A stretch of 40,418 nucleotides of DNA from Promineifilum sp. GTDB lineage: Bacteria; Chloroflexota; Anaerolineae; Promineifilales; Promineifilaceae. Position 1 is the first letter of the stretch. Every line of letters starts with the position of its first letter. The notes under the pieces were generated by a model. It saw nothing but the letters and a program-made list of their open reading frames with translations. It was not told the origin of the DNA and searched no databases. The position numbers and the translations under genes are program-made. Shown one piece after another: positions 4,149 through 15,353 of the stretch. The stretch covers positions 1-40,418 of the forward strand of contig JAIBAS010000081.1 of the NCBI GenBank assembly GCA_019695075.1, read 5' to 3'.

Positions 4149-4911
4149 TCTGTGGCGTGACCGAGACCATTTCCGCCTCTTCGCCATAGACTTCTTTGAA
4201 CTTCGCGGGCGTCAGCTCCGACGGCAGGCCATCGAAGACGAGTTCGCCCGCCTTCAGGCCCACGACGCGCGTGGCATAGCGATGCACGAGGTCAAGAAAG
4301 TGCAAGCTGCACAGAACGGTGATGTGGTCTTGTTGATTGAGTAGTTCGAGATAACGCAGGATGGAATGCGACAGCACCGGGTCGAGGCTGGCCACCGGCT
4401 CGTCGGCCAGGAGCAATTTCGGCTCCTGCATCAGGGCGCGGGCGATGCCGACGCGCTGCTGCTGACCGCCGGAGAGCTGGTCGGCGCGGTTGTCGGCCTT
4501 GTCCTCGATGCCAACGCGGGCCAGGGCCGCCCGCGCGCGCTGGCGATCCTCGGCCGAAAAGCGGCCGAGCAGGCTCCAGAAGGGATTGACGTAGCCCAGC
4601 CGCCCGGTCAGCACGTTGGTGGTCACGCTGCTGCGCTTGACCAGGTTGAAGTGCTGGAAAACCATGCCGATCTGCCGGCGAATCTCGCGCAGTTCCGACG
4701 GATTGGCGGCGGTGATGTTCTGGCCGTTCCAGATGACCGCGCCGGCCGTCGGCTCGATCAGCCGGTTGATGCACCGTAGCAGGGTCGATTTGCCGGAGCC
4801 GGACAGGCCGATGATGGCCAGGAACTCGCCGTCCGCGACGCGAAAGCTGACGTCCTTGAGGGCTACGGTTCCGTCGGGGAAGACCTTCGTCAGGTTCTGG
4901 ATTTCGAGCAC
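4138..4911 (-). CDS. phnC: Phosphonate-type ABC transporter ATP-binding protein PhnC
   Basis: ATPase subunit that powers the PhnDE importer from the cytoplasmic face. It has Walker A GLSGSGKST, Q-loop VFQHFNLV, ABC signature LSGGQQQR, Walker B LLLADEP and the H-loop in CSLHFLD. The sequence VLEIQNLTKVFPDGT matches the usual PhnC amino terminus. I take GTG at 4911 as the start because GGAGAA sits three bases upstream; an ATG at 4962 would add 17 residues with no family counterpart. From GTG it is 257 aa, the normal PhnC length. It follows phnD by about 100 nt and overlaps the phnE fusion by 11 nt, so translational coupling is likely. Confidence 0.93.
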   Translation of the reverse strand: MLEIQNLTKVFPDGTVALKDVSFRVADGEFLAIIGLSGSGKSTLLRCINRLIEPTAGAVIWNGQNITAANPSELREIRRQIGMVFQHFNLVKRSSVTTNVLTGRLGYVNPFWSLLGRFSAEDRQRARAALARVGIEDKADNRADQLSGGQQQRVGIARALMQEPKLLLADEPVASLDPVLSHSILRYLELLNQQDHITVLCSLHFLDLVHRYATRVVGLKAGELVFDGLPSELTPAKFKEVYGEEAEMVSVTPQNAS

Positions 4912-11785: not shown

Positions 11786-11814
11786 GGGCGGGTGCGAACC
11801 CGCCCCTTTCTTTT
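11786..11814 (+). terminator. Rho-independent terminator after the LysM gene
   Basis: GGGCGGGT, loop GCGA, ACCCGCCC, then CTTTCTTTT. It ends transcription from efp-lysM before the convergent leuS stop codon at 11813. Confidence 0.75.
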
Positions 11815-14269
11815 ATGTGGTTACCACATTCACCAGCCGCCCGGCGACGATGACGTCGCGCACGGCGCGGCCGTCGATAGCCGCCTGCACCCGGCTGTTG
11901 GCCAGGGCCAGCGCCCGCAGCGCCGCGGCGTCGCTGTCGGCGGCGGTTGTCAGCCGGTCGCGCAGCTTGCCGTTGACCTGGACGACGACCGTCACCTGCT
12001 CCTCGACGGTCATGGCCTCGTCCCACACCGGCCAGGCCGCCCGATGAATCGACTCCGGCTCGCCCAGCACCTCGCGCCAGATTTCCTCGGTGATGAACGG
12101 GGCGATGGGGGCCAGCAGCAGCGTCAGTGAGCGGATGGCCGCGCGCCACTGCGCGGCGGCGACCGGCTGCCGGCGCGCGGCGAACAGCGCGTTGGTGTAT
12201 TCCATCAGCGCCGCTACGGCCGTATTGAAGCGGAAGCGCTCCATGTCGGCCGTGACGCGGGCGATGGCGGCATGGCGGGCGCGCTCGAAGGCGACGCTGA
12301 ACGGGCCGTCGGGCAGCGTGGCGAACTCGTGGGCCAGCCGCCAGTAGCGCTCCAGGAAGCGATCGACGCCGACGATGCCGCGGTCGTCCCACAGGGCGTT
12401 GGCGTCGAACGGCCCCAGGAACAGCACGTAGGCGCGCAGCGCGTCGGCCCCGTGGGCGGCCACGACCTCGTCGGGCGTGACGACGTTGCGGCGCGACTTG
12501 GACATCTTCTGCCCGTCCACCGGCGACAGCAGCATGCCCTGGTTGCGCAGTTGCGTGAATGGCTCGTCGAAGTCGATCAGCCCGGCGTCGTGGAAGACCT
12601 TCGTCCAGAAGCGGGCATACAGCAGGTGCATGACGGCGTGCTCCGCGCCGCCGACGTAGACATCGACCGGCAGCCAGGCGGCCACGGCGGCGGGGTCAAA
12701 CGGCCGCGCCGCCTCGTGCGGGCTGGCGTAGCGCAGGAAGTACCACGACGAGCAGGCGAAGCCGTCCATCGTGTCCGTCTCGCGCCGGGCGGGGCCGCCG
12801 CAGTCGGGGCAGGTCGTGTTGACCCACGATGCGATGCCGGCCAGCGGCGAGCGGCCGTCGCCCGTCGGCCGCGGCCGGTCGTCGGGCAGCCGCACGGGCA
12901 GCTGCTCCTCCGGCACGGGCACGATGCCGCAGGCGTCGCAGTAGACGATGGGGATGGGCGCGCCCCAGTAGCGCTGGCGGGAGATCAGCCAGTCGTGGAA
13001 GCGATAGCTCACCGTGGCTTGGCCCTGCCCGCGGGCGGCCAGGTCGGCGGCGATGCGCGCCGCGGCTTCGGCCGAGGGCAGGCCGCTGTAGGGGCCGGAG
13101 TTGATCACCGTGCCCGGGTCCTCGAAGGGCGCGTCCGGGCCGGCCGGAGCGTTATCGCCGGCGGGCGCGACCACCGCCACCACCGGCAGGCCATAGCGCC
13201 GGGCGAAGGCGAAGTCGCGGGCGTCGTGGGCGGGCACGGCCATGATCGCGCCGGCGCCGTAGCCGGCGAGCACGTAGTCGGCCACCCAGACGGGCACGGG
13301 CGCGCCGGTCAGCGGGTGGGTGGCGTAGGTGCCGGTGAAGACGCCGGTCTTCTCGCGGTCGGCCGCGGCGCGGTCGATCTCGGTCATGCGCCGGGCGGCG
13401 GTGACGGTGGCGGCGACCGCGCCGGCCTGCTCCGCGGTGGTAATGCGCGCCACCAGCGGGTGCTCCGGGGCCAGGGCCAGGAAGGTCGCGCCATACAGCG
13501 TGTCGGCCCGCGTGGTGAAGACGGGCAGCGGCCGGCCGGCGACGGTGAAAACCACCTCGGCCCCCTCGGAGCGGCCGATCCATTGCCGCTGCATCGTCTT
13601 GATGCGCTCCGGCCAATCGACCGTATCCAGCCCGGCCAGCAGCCTCTCGGCGTAGTCGGTGATGCGGAAGTACCACTGCTCCAGCTCGACGCGCGTAACG
13701 ACCGAATCGCAGCGCCAGCAGTGGCCGTCCTCGACCTGCTCGTTGGCCAGGATGGTGCGGCACTGGGGACACCACCATTGGTTGCCCACGCCGCGGTAGG
13801 CCAGCCCGCGCCGGTACAGCAGCAGGAAGAACCACTGCGTCCAGCGATAGTAATCGGGGTCGCTGGAGTTGATCTCGCGGCTCCAGTCGTAGGAACACTC
13901 GACCAGTTGCAGCTGGCGCTTGTAGTTGGCGGCGAAGCGACGGGTGGTCTCGGCCGGGTGGATGCCGTGGGCGATGGCGTAGTTCTCGGCCGGCAGGCCG
14001 AAGGCGTCCCAGCCCATGGGGTGCAGCACGTTATAGCCGCGCATCCGGTGGAAGCGGGCGCTGACGCAGGTGGGCACGTAGTTGCGGCAGTGGCCGACCG
14101 ACAGGCCGTCGCCGGAGGGGTAGGGGAAGTAGTCCAGGATGGTGATGTTGGGCCTGGCCGGGTCATCGCCGGTGCGATACAGGTCTTCGGCCTGCCAGCG
14201 CGGCCGCCACTTGGCCTCCAGTTCGGCAAAGGGAACGCGCGCCGCGCGGGTCTTCACATTGGTGCTCAT
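11813..14269 (-). CDS. leuS: Leucyl-tRNA synthetase
   Basis: Class I aminoacyl-tRNA synthetase that charges tRNA-Leu. The 818-aa chain has the HIGH-type motif in PYPSGDGLSVGH (49-60), the GYNVLHPMGWDAFGLPAENYAI segment typical of LeuRS, a zinc-binding-type region (CPQCRTI ... CWRC near 165-190), the CP1 editing domain (about 220-420, with the Thr-rich FTTRADTLYGATF) and KMSKS at 588-592, then the anticodon-binding domain. ATG 14269 is chosen because AGGAG lies about eight bases upstream; an ATG at 14287 has no ribosome site. The 250-base leader carries a leucine attenuator (see the leader peptide and terminator entries), so expression should rise when charged tRNA-Leu is short. Confidence 0.97.
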   Translation of the reverse strand: MSTNVKTRAARVPFAELEAKWRPRWQAEDLYRTGDDPARPNITILDYFPYPSGDGLSVGHCRNYVPTCVSARFHRMRGYNVLHPMGWDAFGLPAENYAIAHGIHPAETTRRFAANYKRQLQLVECSYDWSREINSSDPDYYRWTQWFFLLLYRRGLAYRGVGNQWWCPQCRTILANEQVEDGHCWRCDSVVTRVELEQWYFRITDYAERLLAGLDTVDWPERIKTMQRQWIGRSEGAEVVFTVAGRPLPVFTTRADTLYGATFLALAPEHPLVARITTAEQAGAVAATVTAARRMTEIDRAAADREKTGVFTGTYATHPLTGAPVPVWVADYVLAGYGAGAIMAVPAHDARDFAFARRYGLPVVAVVAPAGDNAPAGPDAPFEDPGTVINSGPYSGLPSAEAAARIAADLAARGQGQATVSYRFHDWLISRQRYWGAPIPIVYCDACGIVPVPEEQLPVRLPDDRPRPTGDGRSPLAGIASWVNTTCPDCGGPARRETDTMDGFACSSWYFLRYASPHEAARPFDPAAVAAWLPVDVYVGGAEHAVMHLLYARFWTKVFHDAGLIDFDEPFTQLRNQGMLLSPVDGQKMSKSRRNVVTPDEVVAAHGADALRAYVLFLGPFDANALWDDRGIVGVDRFLERYWRLAHEFATLPDGPFSVAFERARHAAIARVTADMERFRFNTAVAALMEYTNALFAARRQPVAAAQWRAAIRSLTLLLAPIAPFITEEIWREVLGEPESIHRAAWPVWDEAMTVEEQVTVVVQVNGKLRDRLTTAADSDAAALRALALANSRVQAAIDGRAVRDVIVAGRLVNVVTT

Positions 14270-14360
14270 GTTGTCTCTCCTAATCAATCAGCGCATACAG
14301 AGGAACAGCCACTGCGCCCCGCGACCACCGTACCGTGCGACTGACGGCGACGTGACAAAT

Positions 14361-14388
14361 AAAAAGGCCGCAGGGAGCGCCTGCGGCC
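14361..14388 (-). terminator. Attenuator terminator in the leuS leader
   Basis: On the minus strand the nine-base stem GGCCGCAGG / CCTGCGGCC with a five-base loop is followed by TTTTTATTT. It lies between the leader-peptide stop and leuS, 92 bases before the leuS start. The 5' arm and loop contain GCAGGCGC, which is exactly complementary to GCGCCTGC (14433-14440) inside the leader peptide gene, giving a competing antiterminator. Confidence 0.8.
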
Positions 14389-14419
14389 GAAACGATAAAG
14401 AGAAGGATCGGGGAACGGG

Positions 14420-14506
14420 TTAAGCTCGTCCGGCAGGCGCGGGTAATCGGGCAATGATGTTGCCAAGTAACAAGCCGCGCAGTCGGAAGGAGACGATCTC
14501 GTTCAT
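14420..14506 (-). CDS. Leucine leader peptide of leuS (28 aa)
   Basis: ATG at 14506, TAA at 14420-14422. The peptide reads M-N-E-I-V-S-F-R-L-R-G-L-L-L-G-N-I-I-A-R-L and ends P-A-P-A-G-R-A. Five of its 28 codons are Leu: CTG at codon 9, then TTG, TTA and CTT at 12-14, and TTA at 21. TTA and CTT should be rare in this GC-rich genome. A stalled ribosome at codons 12-14 would leave codons 23-26 (GCGCCTGCCGG) free to pair with the terminator's 5' arm; a ribosome reaching the stop codon would cover that segment and let the terminator form. The predicted promoter starts transcription about 10 bases upstream of the ATG, leaving no room for a normal ribosome-binding site, so the peptide may be translated from an almost leaderless mRNA. 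Confidence 0.75.
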   Translation of the reverse strand: MNEIVSFRLRGLLLGNIIARLPAPAGRA

Positions 14507-14521
14507 GCGATCACTGCCGAC

Positions 14522-14551
14522 AGAGTAGCATAGGGGCCGGGCCACTGTCAA
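14522..14551 (-). promoter_or_regulatory. leuS promoter
   Basis: Minus strand: a perfect TTGACA (-35, 14546-14551), 18-base spacer, TACTCT (-10, 14522-14527) preceded by an extended TGC. The start point would fall only about 10 bases before the leucine leader peptide. Confidence 0.6.
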
Positions 14552-14557
14552 GCGGCA

Positions 14558-15214
14558 TTAGCGCCCGCCCTTCAAGCTGTCCTGCATCCGCTGCAAGTCG
14601 TCCCACAGGCCGGCGGCGGCCAGGCGGGCCTGCTCCGGCCAGGTGGTCGGGTCGCCGAAGGAGCCGCGCAGCTCGGCGGCGACGAGGATTTCGCGCAGCC
14701 GCTCAACGCTGGTCAGGCTCAGCGCCTCGAAGGTGGTGATGCCGGCGGCGTTGAGGATGCCGGCGATGCGCGGGCCGATGCCCTCGATGCGCTTCAGATC
14801 ATCCGGCTCCATGAAGCTCGGTTCCGGCTCCATGAAGGCCGGCTCCGGCTCAGCCATCAAGGGCACTTCCGGCATGGCCGCGCGCGTGGGCGGCTCATAG
14901 GTGGGCGCGGGCGGCACGACGGGCGTGGCCGGTGTCATCGGCGCGGCGGGCGGCTCATAAGTGGCGCTGCGGCGCGGTGGCTCCGGCGGCGGCGGCACAG
15001 GCTTGCGGCGGAGGAACAGCCACCACAGCAAGAACAGCAGCAGCAGGATCAAGACGACCCACAGCCACCACGACAGGCCGAGCGGCCCGCCGGTCTGCGC
15101 TGCGGCGTCGGCCACGGGCGTAGGCGTCTGCTGGGCGCTGACGGCGGCCACGCCCACGCTGAGTGAGCCGAAAGCCGCCAGCAGCGCGCTTCCCTTTCTC
15201 AATTGACGGTTCAT
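14558..15214 (-). CDS. Membrane-anchored helix-hairpin-helix protein
   Basis: A 218-aa protein. A signal-like helix (about 8-27, ending SAQQTPTP) is followed by a strong membrane segment (about 47-68), a basic R-R-K stop, a long linker rich in Pro, Glu and Ala with repeated TYEPP and EPEPxFMEP units (72-137), and a C-terminal helix-hairpin-helix module (138-185) with KRIEGIGPRIAGILNAAG. Such HhH modules bind DNA or proteins nonspecifically; with this topology it would face the cytoplasm if residues 47-68 are the only retained membrane helix. ATG 15214 has AGGAAGGG just upstream; earlier in-frame codons are not supported. Function unknown. Confidence 0.75.
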   Translation of the reverse strand: MNRQLRKGSALLAAFGSLSVGVAAVSAQQTPTPVADAAAQTGGPLGLSWWLWVVLILLLLFLLWWLFLRRKPVPPPPEPPRRSATYEPPAAPMTPATPVVPPAPTYEPPTRAAMPEVPLMAEPEPAFMEPEPSFMEPDDLKRIEGIGPRIAGILNAAGITTFEALSLTSVERLREILVAAELRGSFGDPTTWPEQARLAAAGLWDDLQRMQDSLKGGR

Positions 15215-15272
15215 TTTTCCCTTCCTGCTTATGTGCGTCTCCATTCGGAGAGCGCTCGATAGACCTGATGCT

Positions 15273-15301
15273 ACTCTAAAAGAGGATGGGGGTGATGTCA
15301 A
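15273..15301 (-). promoter_or_regulatory. Promoter of the helix-hairpin-helix gene
   Basis: Minus strand: perfect TTGACA (15296-15301), 17-base spacer, TAGAGT (15273-15278), about 60 bases before the start at 15214. Confidence 0.55.
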
Positions 15302-15353
15302 GGGTTGGGGCAGACACGCAGACAGGGCAGACACGCAGGTCTGCCCCTACCCT
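15301..15353. repeat. Long intergenic inverted repeat (AGGGT/GGGGCAGAC stem)
   Basis: AGGGT-T-GGGGCAGAC (15301-15315) pairs with GTCTGCCCC-T-ACCCT (15339-15353), a 15-base stem with one mismatch. The loop side also holds a direct duplication of GGGCAGACACGCAG (15308-15321 and 15325-15338). It lies between the GH3 stop and the divergent promoter and may act as a transcription barrier; it is similar in style to the palindromes at 11740 and 17989. Confidence 0.6.

Follow-up and report, generated by a model that had tools for sequence, protein, structure and literature searches.

Streptomyces trpRS1 encodes an auxiliary, indolmycin-resistant tryptophanyl-tRNA synthetase (TrpRS) and is regulated by attenuation. 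Leader-peptide attenuators of leuS, the gene for leucyl-tRNA synthetase (LeuRS), were predicted in 2005 for Streptomyces avermitilis and S. coelicolor (Seliverstov et al., PMC1262725). The original prediction for the DNA described here had proposed a leucine attenuator before a leuS gene and considered a synthetase an unusual target; the leader does appear to control leuS, a target already predicted in Streptomyces. In the open-access literature, no paper was found on leader-peptide attenuation of leuS in Chloroflexota.

The window, i.e. the whole analysed stretch of 40,418 nucleotides from Promineifilum sp., contains on its minus strand the following features:

14546..14551 (-): -35 element TTGACA, with TTGAC kept at the same place in relatives
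14522..14527 (-): -10 element TACTCT with TGC in front (extended -10 type); TGCTAyyCT is kept across genera
14420..14506 (-): leader peptide ORF of 28 codons, MNEIVSFRLRGLLLGNIIARLPAPAGRA, with a homologous Leu-rich ORF in 32 leaders and the strict run in 29
14475..14480 (-): strand 1 (protector), GCGCGG, partner of 14437-14442, with compensatory changes in the genus
14465..14473 (-): control codons Leu12-Leu13-Leu14 (TTG TTA CTT), with TTACTTGGC invariant in six genus members
14437..14442 (-): strand 2, CCGCGC, partner of strand 1
14433..14440 (-): strand 2, GCGCCTGC, antiterminator partner of strand 3
14377..14384 (-): strand 3, GCAGGCGC, in the 5' arm and loop of the terminator, antiterminator partner
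14366..14388 (-): terminator hairpin (3:4) GGCCGCAGGCGCTCCCTGCGGCC, 9 pairs and a loop of 5, conserved in the genus
14361..14365 (-): T-run TTTTT of the terminator
14277..14281 (-): Shine-Dalgarno sequence AGGAG of leuS
11813..14269 (-): leuS, the regulated gene, encoding an accessory ('A-type') LeuRS with SVGH instead of HIGH

Promoter, 28-codon ORF, Leu positions (codons 9, 12, 13, 14 and 21 of MNEIVSFRLRGLLLGNIIARLPAPAGRA) and terminator with its T-run had all been named in the original prediction and were recovered base for base on the minus strand. The spacer between TTGACA and TACTCT is 18, and the TTGAC...TGCTAyyCT block is conserved in the leaders of relatives. A sigma-70 scan did not report this promoter, because TACTCT fits only three of the six consensus bases. 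About 15 nt separate the end of the -10 element from the leader ATG downstream; the predicted 5' UTR is only about 9 nt long and lacks an obvious Shine-Dalgarno sequence, which counts against reading the leader as an attenuator. TTA and CTT, which had been expected to be rare, each account for 1 of 175 Leu codons in the three neighbouring genes counted; together they provide three of the five Leu codons of the leader ORF, as against 2 of 175 in these three genes. The hairpin at 14388-14366, which lies between the ORF and leuS, is the best match of the terminator scan, with a fold z of -4.2. Leu14 ends at 14465, strand 2 spans 14442-14433 and the stop codon is at 14422, a geometry that is predicted to keep strand 2 ahead of a ribosome stalled on the control codons and to place it underneath one that has reached the stop. 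A plasmid search with the 28-residue leader peptide returned nothing useful.

For comparison, regions upstream of A-type leuS genes were collected within the family, across its order and in further families of the class, mostly from fragmented and probably metagenome-derived assemblies; the order-level sampling around the other families covered 48 genomes. Genes were assigned to the A-type at an identity of at least 58% over the N-terminal 250 residues, canonical copies reaching about 50-53%, and the comparison set consists of the 32 Anaerolineae leaders with a measurable terminator. A short Leu-containing ORF precedes the terminator in all 32. A strict test, which asked for an ORF of 10-60 codons that opens with ATG or GTG, has three Leu within five codons and stops in the interval from 70 nt upstream to 12 nt downstream of the point where the terminator begins, was passed by 29 leaders versus 3.6 expected from dinucleotide shuffles, a figure that counts sequences sharing descent and not independent events. 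The leaders of G069, G036 and G363 fail the Leu-triple criterion, and their peptides hold Leu pairs. The original prediction had hinged on relatives keeping the Leu run, which they do. The distance from stop codon to terminator is 22-39 nt in all leaders except that of G001 (53).

The excess over shuffles also argues against the suggestion that the hairpin merely terminates transcription of the upstream gene (14558-15334), with the Leu-rich ORF arising by chance. Encoded on the minus strand as well, this gene stops at 14558, close ahead of the promoter, as expected if the hairpin served it. However, the ORF-terminator pair stays with leuS although the upstream gene varies (a different gene is present in G007), and the terminator is separated from that gene by a conserved promoter, which makes this explanation highly improbable. 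Between genera, the peptide sequence varies except for the Leu run, and what is kept are the Leu codons and the alternatively pairing RNA strands. This pattern speaks against a functional small protein. The ORF might instead be a platform for reinitiation, through which short leader genes can boost downstream expression (PMC4833913), but here a strong terminator separates it from the gene; it is very unlikely that the ORF fulfils either of these roles instead of sensing leucine. The leaders combine a short ORF carrying a run of cognate codons, for which translation is predicted, with an intrinsic terminator before the gene.

Three mutually exclusive helices can be formed in the leader, 1:2, 2:3 and 3:4, the last being the terminator. 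The competition between 2:3 and 3:4 had been recognized at the outset, and the proposed 8-base pairing holds: GCGCCTGC (14440-14433) is complementary to GCAGGCGC (14384-14377), and RNAduplex gives a duplex of 10 pairs with one bulge. Overlooked at that stage was the third pairing, 1:2, which joins strand 2 to the beginning of the Leu region in the six sequences of the genus alignment and completes the classical arrangement. The antiterminator excludes the terminator and, at the genus level, the protector 1:2 excludes 2:3.

In the 32 leaders, strand 2 is located within the last peptide codons, and its partner is formed by the 5' arm and loop of the terminator; in every one of them, the 2:3 helix begins 9-35 nt ahead of the last base of the stop codon. 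Its RNAduplex energy has a mean z of -1.7 relative to shuffles, with 24 of the 32 leaders below -1 and a weak duplex in G006. Cognate strands pair at -18.8 kcal/mol versus -14.9 kcal/mol for swapped ones (p = 5e-5, for all 32 leaders and for 19 genus-level representatives alike). The pairing is kept with different bases depending on the lineage: GCGCCTGC/GCAGGCGC, GCTTGGG/CCCAAGC, GTTTGGG/CCCAAAC, GTCTGGG/CCCAGAC and GGCTGG/CCAGCC. In nine leaders outside the window's family, one 2:3 pair is UA, GC or CG and another is CG, UA or UG, and a third lineage group shows 2:3 as variants of GCTGGAGC/GCTCCGGC; these two alignments were built by hand from RNAduplex output and their percentages lean towards structure, the swap test being independent of them. 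Within the genus alignment, which comprises six sequences, pairing in the 1:2 helix reaches 97%; two of its pairs show double changes (GC/AU in one, CG/GC in the other), and its covariation is equalled by 6 of 500 shuffles. The 2:3 helix is 92% paired there and shows two changes from CG to UA, its covariation within these six sequences alone not exceeding that of shuffles. As judged from these alignments, 1:2 covaries clearly within the genus and 2:3 mainly between lineages. The compensatory changes expected for the antiterminator are therefore present between lineages, but the covariation is weak within the genus alone.

When folded as a whole and untranslated, the window leader adopts 1:2 plus the terminator. 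RNA that begins at 14453, i.e. after a ribosome stalled at Leu14, and has not yet passed 14375 folds as the antiterminator. With the terminator 3' arm present, the completed terminator beats the antiterminator at equilibrium, and antitermination must therefore be kinetic. Kinetic antitermination is usual for attenuators.

The accessory leuS is thus very probably controlled by its leader, which would act as a ribosome-mediated transcription attenuator responding to charged tRNA-Leu. The comparative evidence supports the leucine attenuator of the original prediction, and its coupling to translation would proceed as follows. Leader RNA would start from the promoter that precedes the leader ATG. 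As long as Leu-tRNA is plentiful, the ribosome would pass Leu12-14, reach the stop and cover strand 2 (14442-14433), allowing the terminator 3:4 (14388-14366) to form and transcription to end before leuS. If charged tRNA-Leu runs short, the ribosome would stall at Leu12-14 and block strand 1; strand 2 would be left free to pair with strand 3 (14384-14377), no terminator would form and leuS would be transcribed. Without translation, both 1:2 and 3:4 would form, keeping leuS off.

A covariance model built on the genus leader detects the element once, with a strong score (142-153 bits), in each of six members of the genus, the same genomes that supplied its source sequences, and all six copies are located directly before an A-type leuS. 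It finds no copy in two further members of the genus, G002 and G004, where no A-type leuS was found either. Weaker matches elsewhere in the family, in genomes not included in the model, are mostly leaders of A-type leuS. Matches in G031 and G066 have no Leu-run ORF and were set aside, as was a match on contig 39 of G009, which lies before an ABC transporter gene and has a peptide without Leu run. At the latter locus (L188), the short ORF MSKYRITPIAFDDASARGLAKGAVRAVDLP and then a strong terminator precede the transporter gene, possibly representing another attenuator. The attenuator is absent from L087 and L088, both deeper relatives of the A-type clade.

T-boxes are common on synthetase genes, and the canonical leuS of this genome has one, which would make a divergent T-box or another riboswitch a natural candidate for the leader as well. 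Yet the window leader contains neither a specifier (Stem I) nor a T-box antiterminator motif, no Rfam family reaches its gathering score in it and no T-box is detected at a permissive threshold, leaving this possibility with a negligible probability. The Rfam leucine operon leader gives no covariance-model match in the window leader, and a suhB match below threshold corresponds to the terminator hairpin.

The regulated gene is, judging from its sequence, an accessory LeuRS paralogue and not the housekeeping copy. In a tree of 101 LeuRS, the A-type copies group together, apart from the canonical ones (SH-aLRT 99 versus the B group). All 13 A-type copies carry SVGH or SMGH, which otherwise occur in only three relatives (one of them identical to G032); the other LeuRS in the tree have HIGH, HMGH, HVGH or HTGH at this site. 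The KMSKS motif of A-type LeuRS is retained as KMSKS or RMSKS. In G363, contig 175 carries A-type leuS at 4159 and 90438, near both contig ends, inverted and with identical match scores, reflecting either a real duplication or an assembly artefact.

Many genomes of the family encode both LeuRS types, and the window's genome is one of them. Its canonical leuS has a leucine T-box match of 85.9 bits, just under the curated threshold of 93, and the T-boxes of five other canonical leuS genes exceed the curated threshold. Because both types co-occur and the canonical copy has a T-box, A-type leuS is considered an accessory synthetase with its own sensor. The contrast with T-boxes drawn in the original prediction stands insofar as the window leuS has none, but it concerned an accessory paralogue, the canonical leuS of the same genome being under a T-box. 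The natural trigger of the attenuator could tentatively be inhibition or overload of the canonical LeuRS, by an inhibitor or by slow charging, with the accessory LeuRS serving as a backup that is possibly inhibitor-tolerant. This would fit the patchy occurrence of the A-type enzyme as a second copy, its SVGH in place of HIGH and the separate T-box of the canonical gene, and it has a parallel in the auxiliary indolmycin-resistant TrpRS of Streptomyces, which is under ribosome-mediated attenuation. However, no inhibitor is known for these organisms, and both triggers lower charged tRNA-Leu, so that sequence cannot separate them; such a trigger is a variant of the attenuator proposed here and not an exclusive alternative. 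A backup or inhibitor-tolerant function of A-type LeuRS is a guess.

The leader of the canonical leuS has a peculiarity of its own. A complete tRNA-Ala(GGC) gene is located 16-53 nt before the T-box antiterminator motif in all 19 loci examined, including that of the window's own genome:

L046 597-879, contig 320 of the window's own genome (-): tRNA-Ala(GGC) and T-box leader

The other 18 loci are L043, L044, L045, L048, L049, L050, L052, L053, L055, L022, L024, L026, L029, L030, L033, L035, L036 and L037. In the genus, the tRNA-Ala(GGC) gene sits in the Stem III loop inside the T-box (GTGGATGGTA-tRNA-TACCATC-AATCAGAGTGGTACCGCG), and in most canonical leuS loci a tRNA-Ala(CGC) gene is found upstream of Stem I. 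The T-box specifier of L045 looks like the Leu codon CUC. Processing of the tRNA would cut the T-box leader. No paper was found on a tRNA-Ala gene within a leuS T-box leader, and this arrangement is possibly more novel than the leuS attenuator itself.

Five genera of the family (g4, g6, g15, g16 and g22) carry a second, Leu-containing uORF between terminator and leuS (e.g. MIVMIQNGNLLLLSRPAAARPLAV, MTQILVLPKPDNPAGRLPRSG and MIRFTKQLLLLYCPTAGPADAG), accompanied by GC-rich hairpins without T-run; the window's genus has no second uORF at this position. The Leu codons of the second uORF pair with the Shine-Dalgarno region of leuS, as in CAGTTACTCCT/AGGAGTAACTG (G068), CCTCTTGTTGT/ACAATAAGAGG (G030) and CTCGTCTT/AAGACGAG (G028), and cognate pairings are stronger than swapped ones (p = 1.5e-4; p = 0.003 for six genus representatives). 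In G022, the second uORF is present without convincing Shine-Dalgarno pairing. A ribosome stalled on these Leu codons would free the Shine-Dalgarno sequence of leuS. On balance, it is probable that the accessory leuS of several genera is gated twice by Leu codons, by the transcriptional attenuator and then by sequestration of the Shine-Dalgarno sequence, the window's genus having the first gate only. If this is true, the tandem form would compactly combine control of transcription and of translation through the same codons.

Further elements are found in this interval. In genus g22 (L015, L064, L066, L067 and L069), ATTACCGATTACCG repeat units lie between the hairpin of the second uORF and the Shine-Dalgarno sequence of leuS, with a long AGTGCCAGGCACGGGG hairpin among the inserted repeats in L064 and L069; the repeat-bearing loci keep the Leu-codon partner AAGACGAG. 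In four distant genera, a mini-ORF starting ATGGGGCTN (Met-Gly-Leu), with a good Shine-Dalgarno sequence, is located between terminator and leuS (L021 in G036, L020 in G040, L173 in G182 and L180 in G412), and in G036 its stop overlaps the leuS start.

The Chloroflexota leader would represent leader-peptide attenuation of a tRNA synthetase in this phylum, backed by conservation and covariation. Attenuator and T-box, each on one of two paralogues, would provide a single genome with two different means of monitoring how far one tRNA family is charged, and the changed HIGH signature suggests that the switch serves a backup enzyme held in reserve. The leader shares with the enterobacterial trp, his, leu and pheST attenuators the helices 1:2, 2:3 and 3:4, control codons before strand 2 and a stop codon whose position lets the ribosome mask strand 2. 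It differs from them in preceding an accessory synthetase gene of Chloroflexota and in the very short 5' UTR before the leader ORF. As in Streptomyces trpRS1, a second, accessory synthetase is placed under a leader peptide attenuator, although the amino acid is Leu here and Trp there, and the resistance role is that of trpRS1. The likeness to the Streptomyces leuS attenuators (PMC1262725) is one of arrangement, with Leu-codon leader peptide, antiterminator and terminator before leuS; those attenuators belong to another phylum, whereas here the element accompanies an accessory SVGH LeuRS clade in many genera, with covariation and often with a second element. This second element of the relatives resembles the actinobacterial LEU element of leuA (PMC1262725) in its base stem, on which the likeness rests, with a Leu-run uORF whose codons pair with the Shine-Dalgarno sequence. 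As it controls leuS instead of leuA, it is not counted as a member of that family; it also follows a transcriptional attenuator, and the window's genus lacks it. The tandem attenuators of Salmonella mgtCBR (PMC3641672) likewise have two successive leader ORFs within one leader; the signals there are others, and the second device of the Chloroflexota relatives would act on translation initiation.
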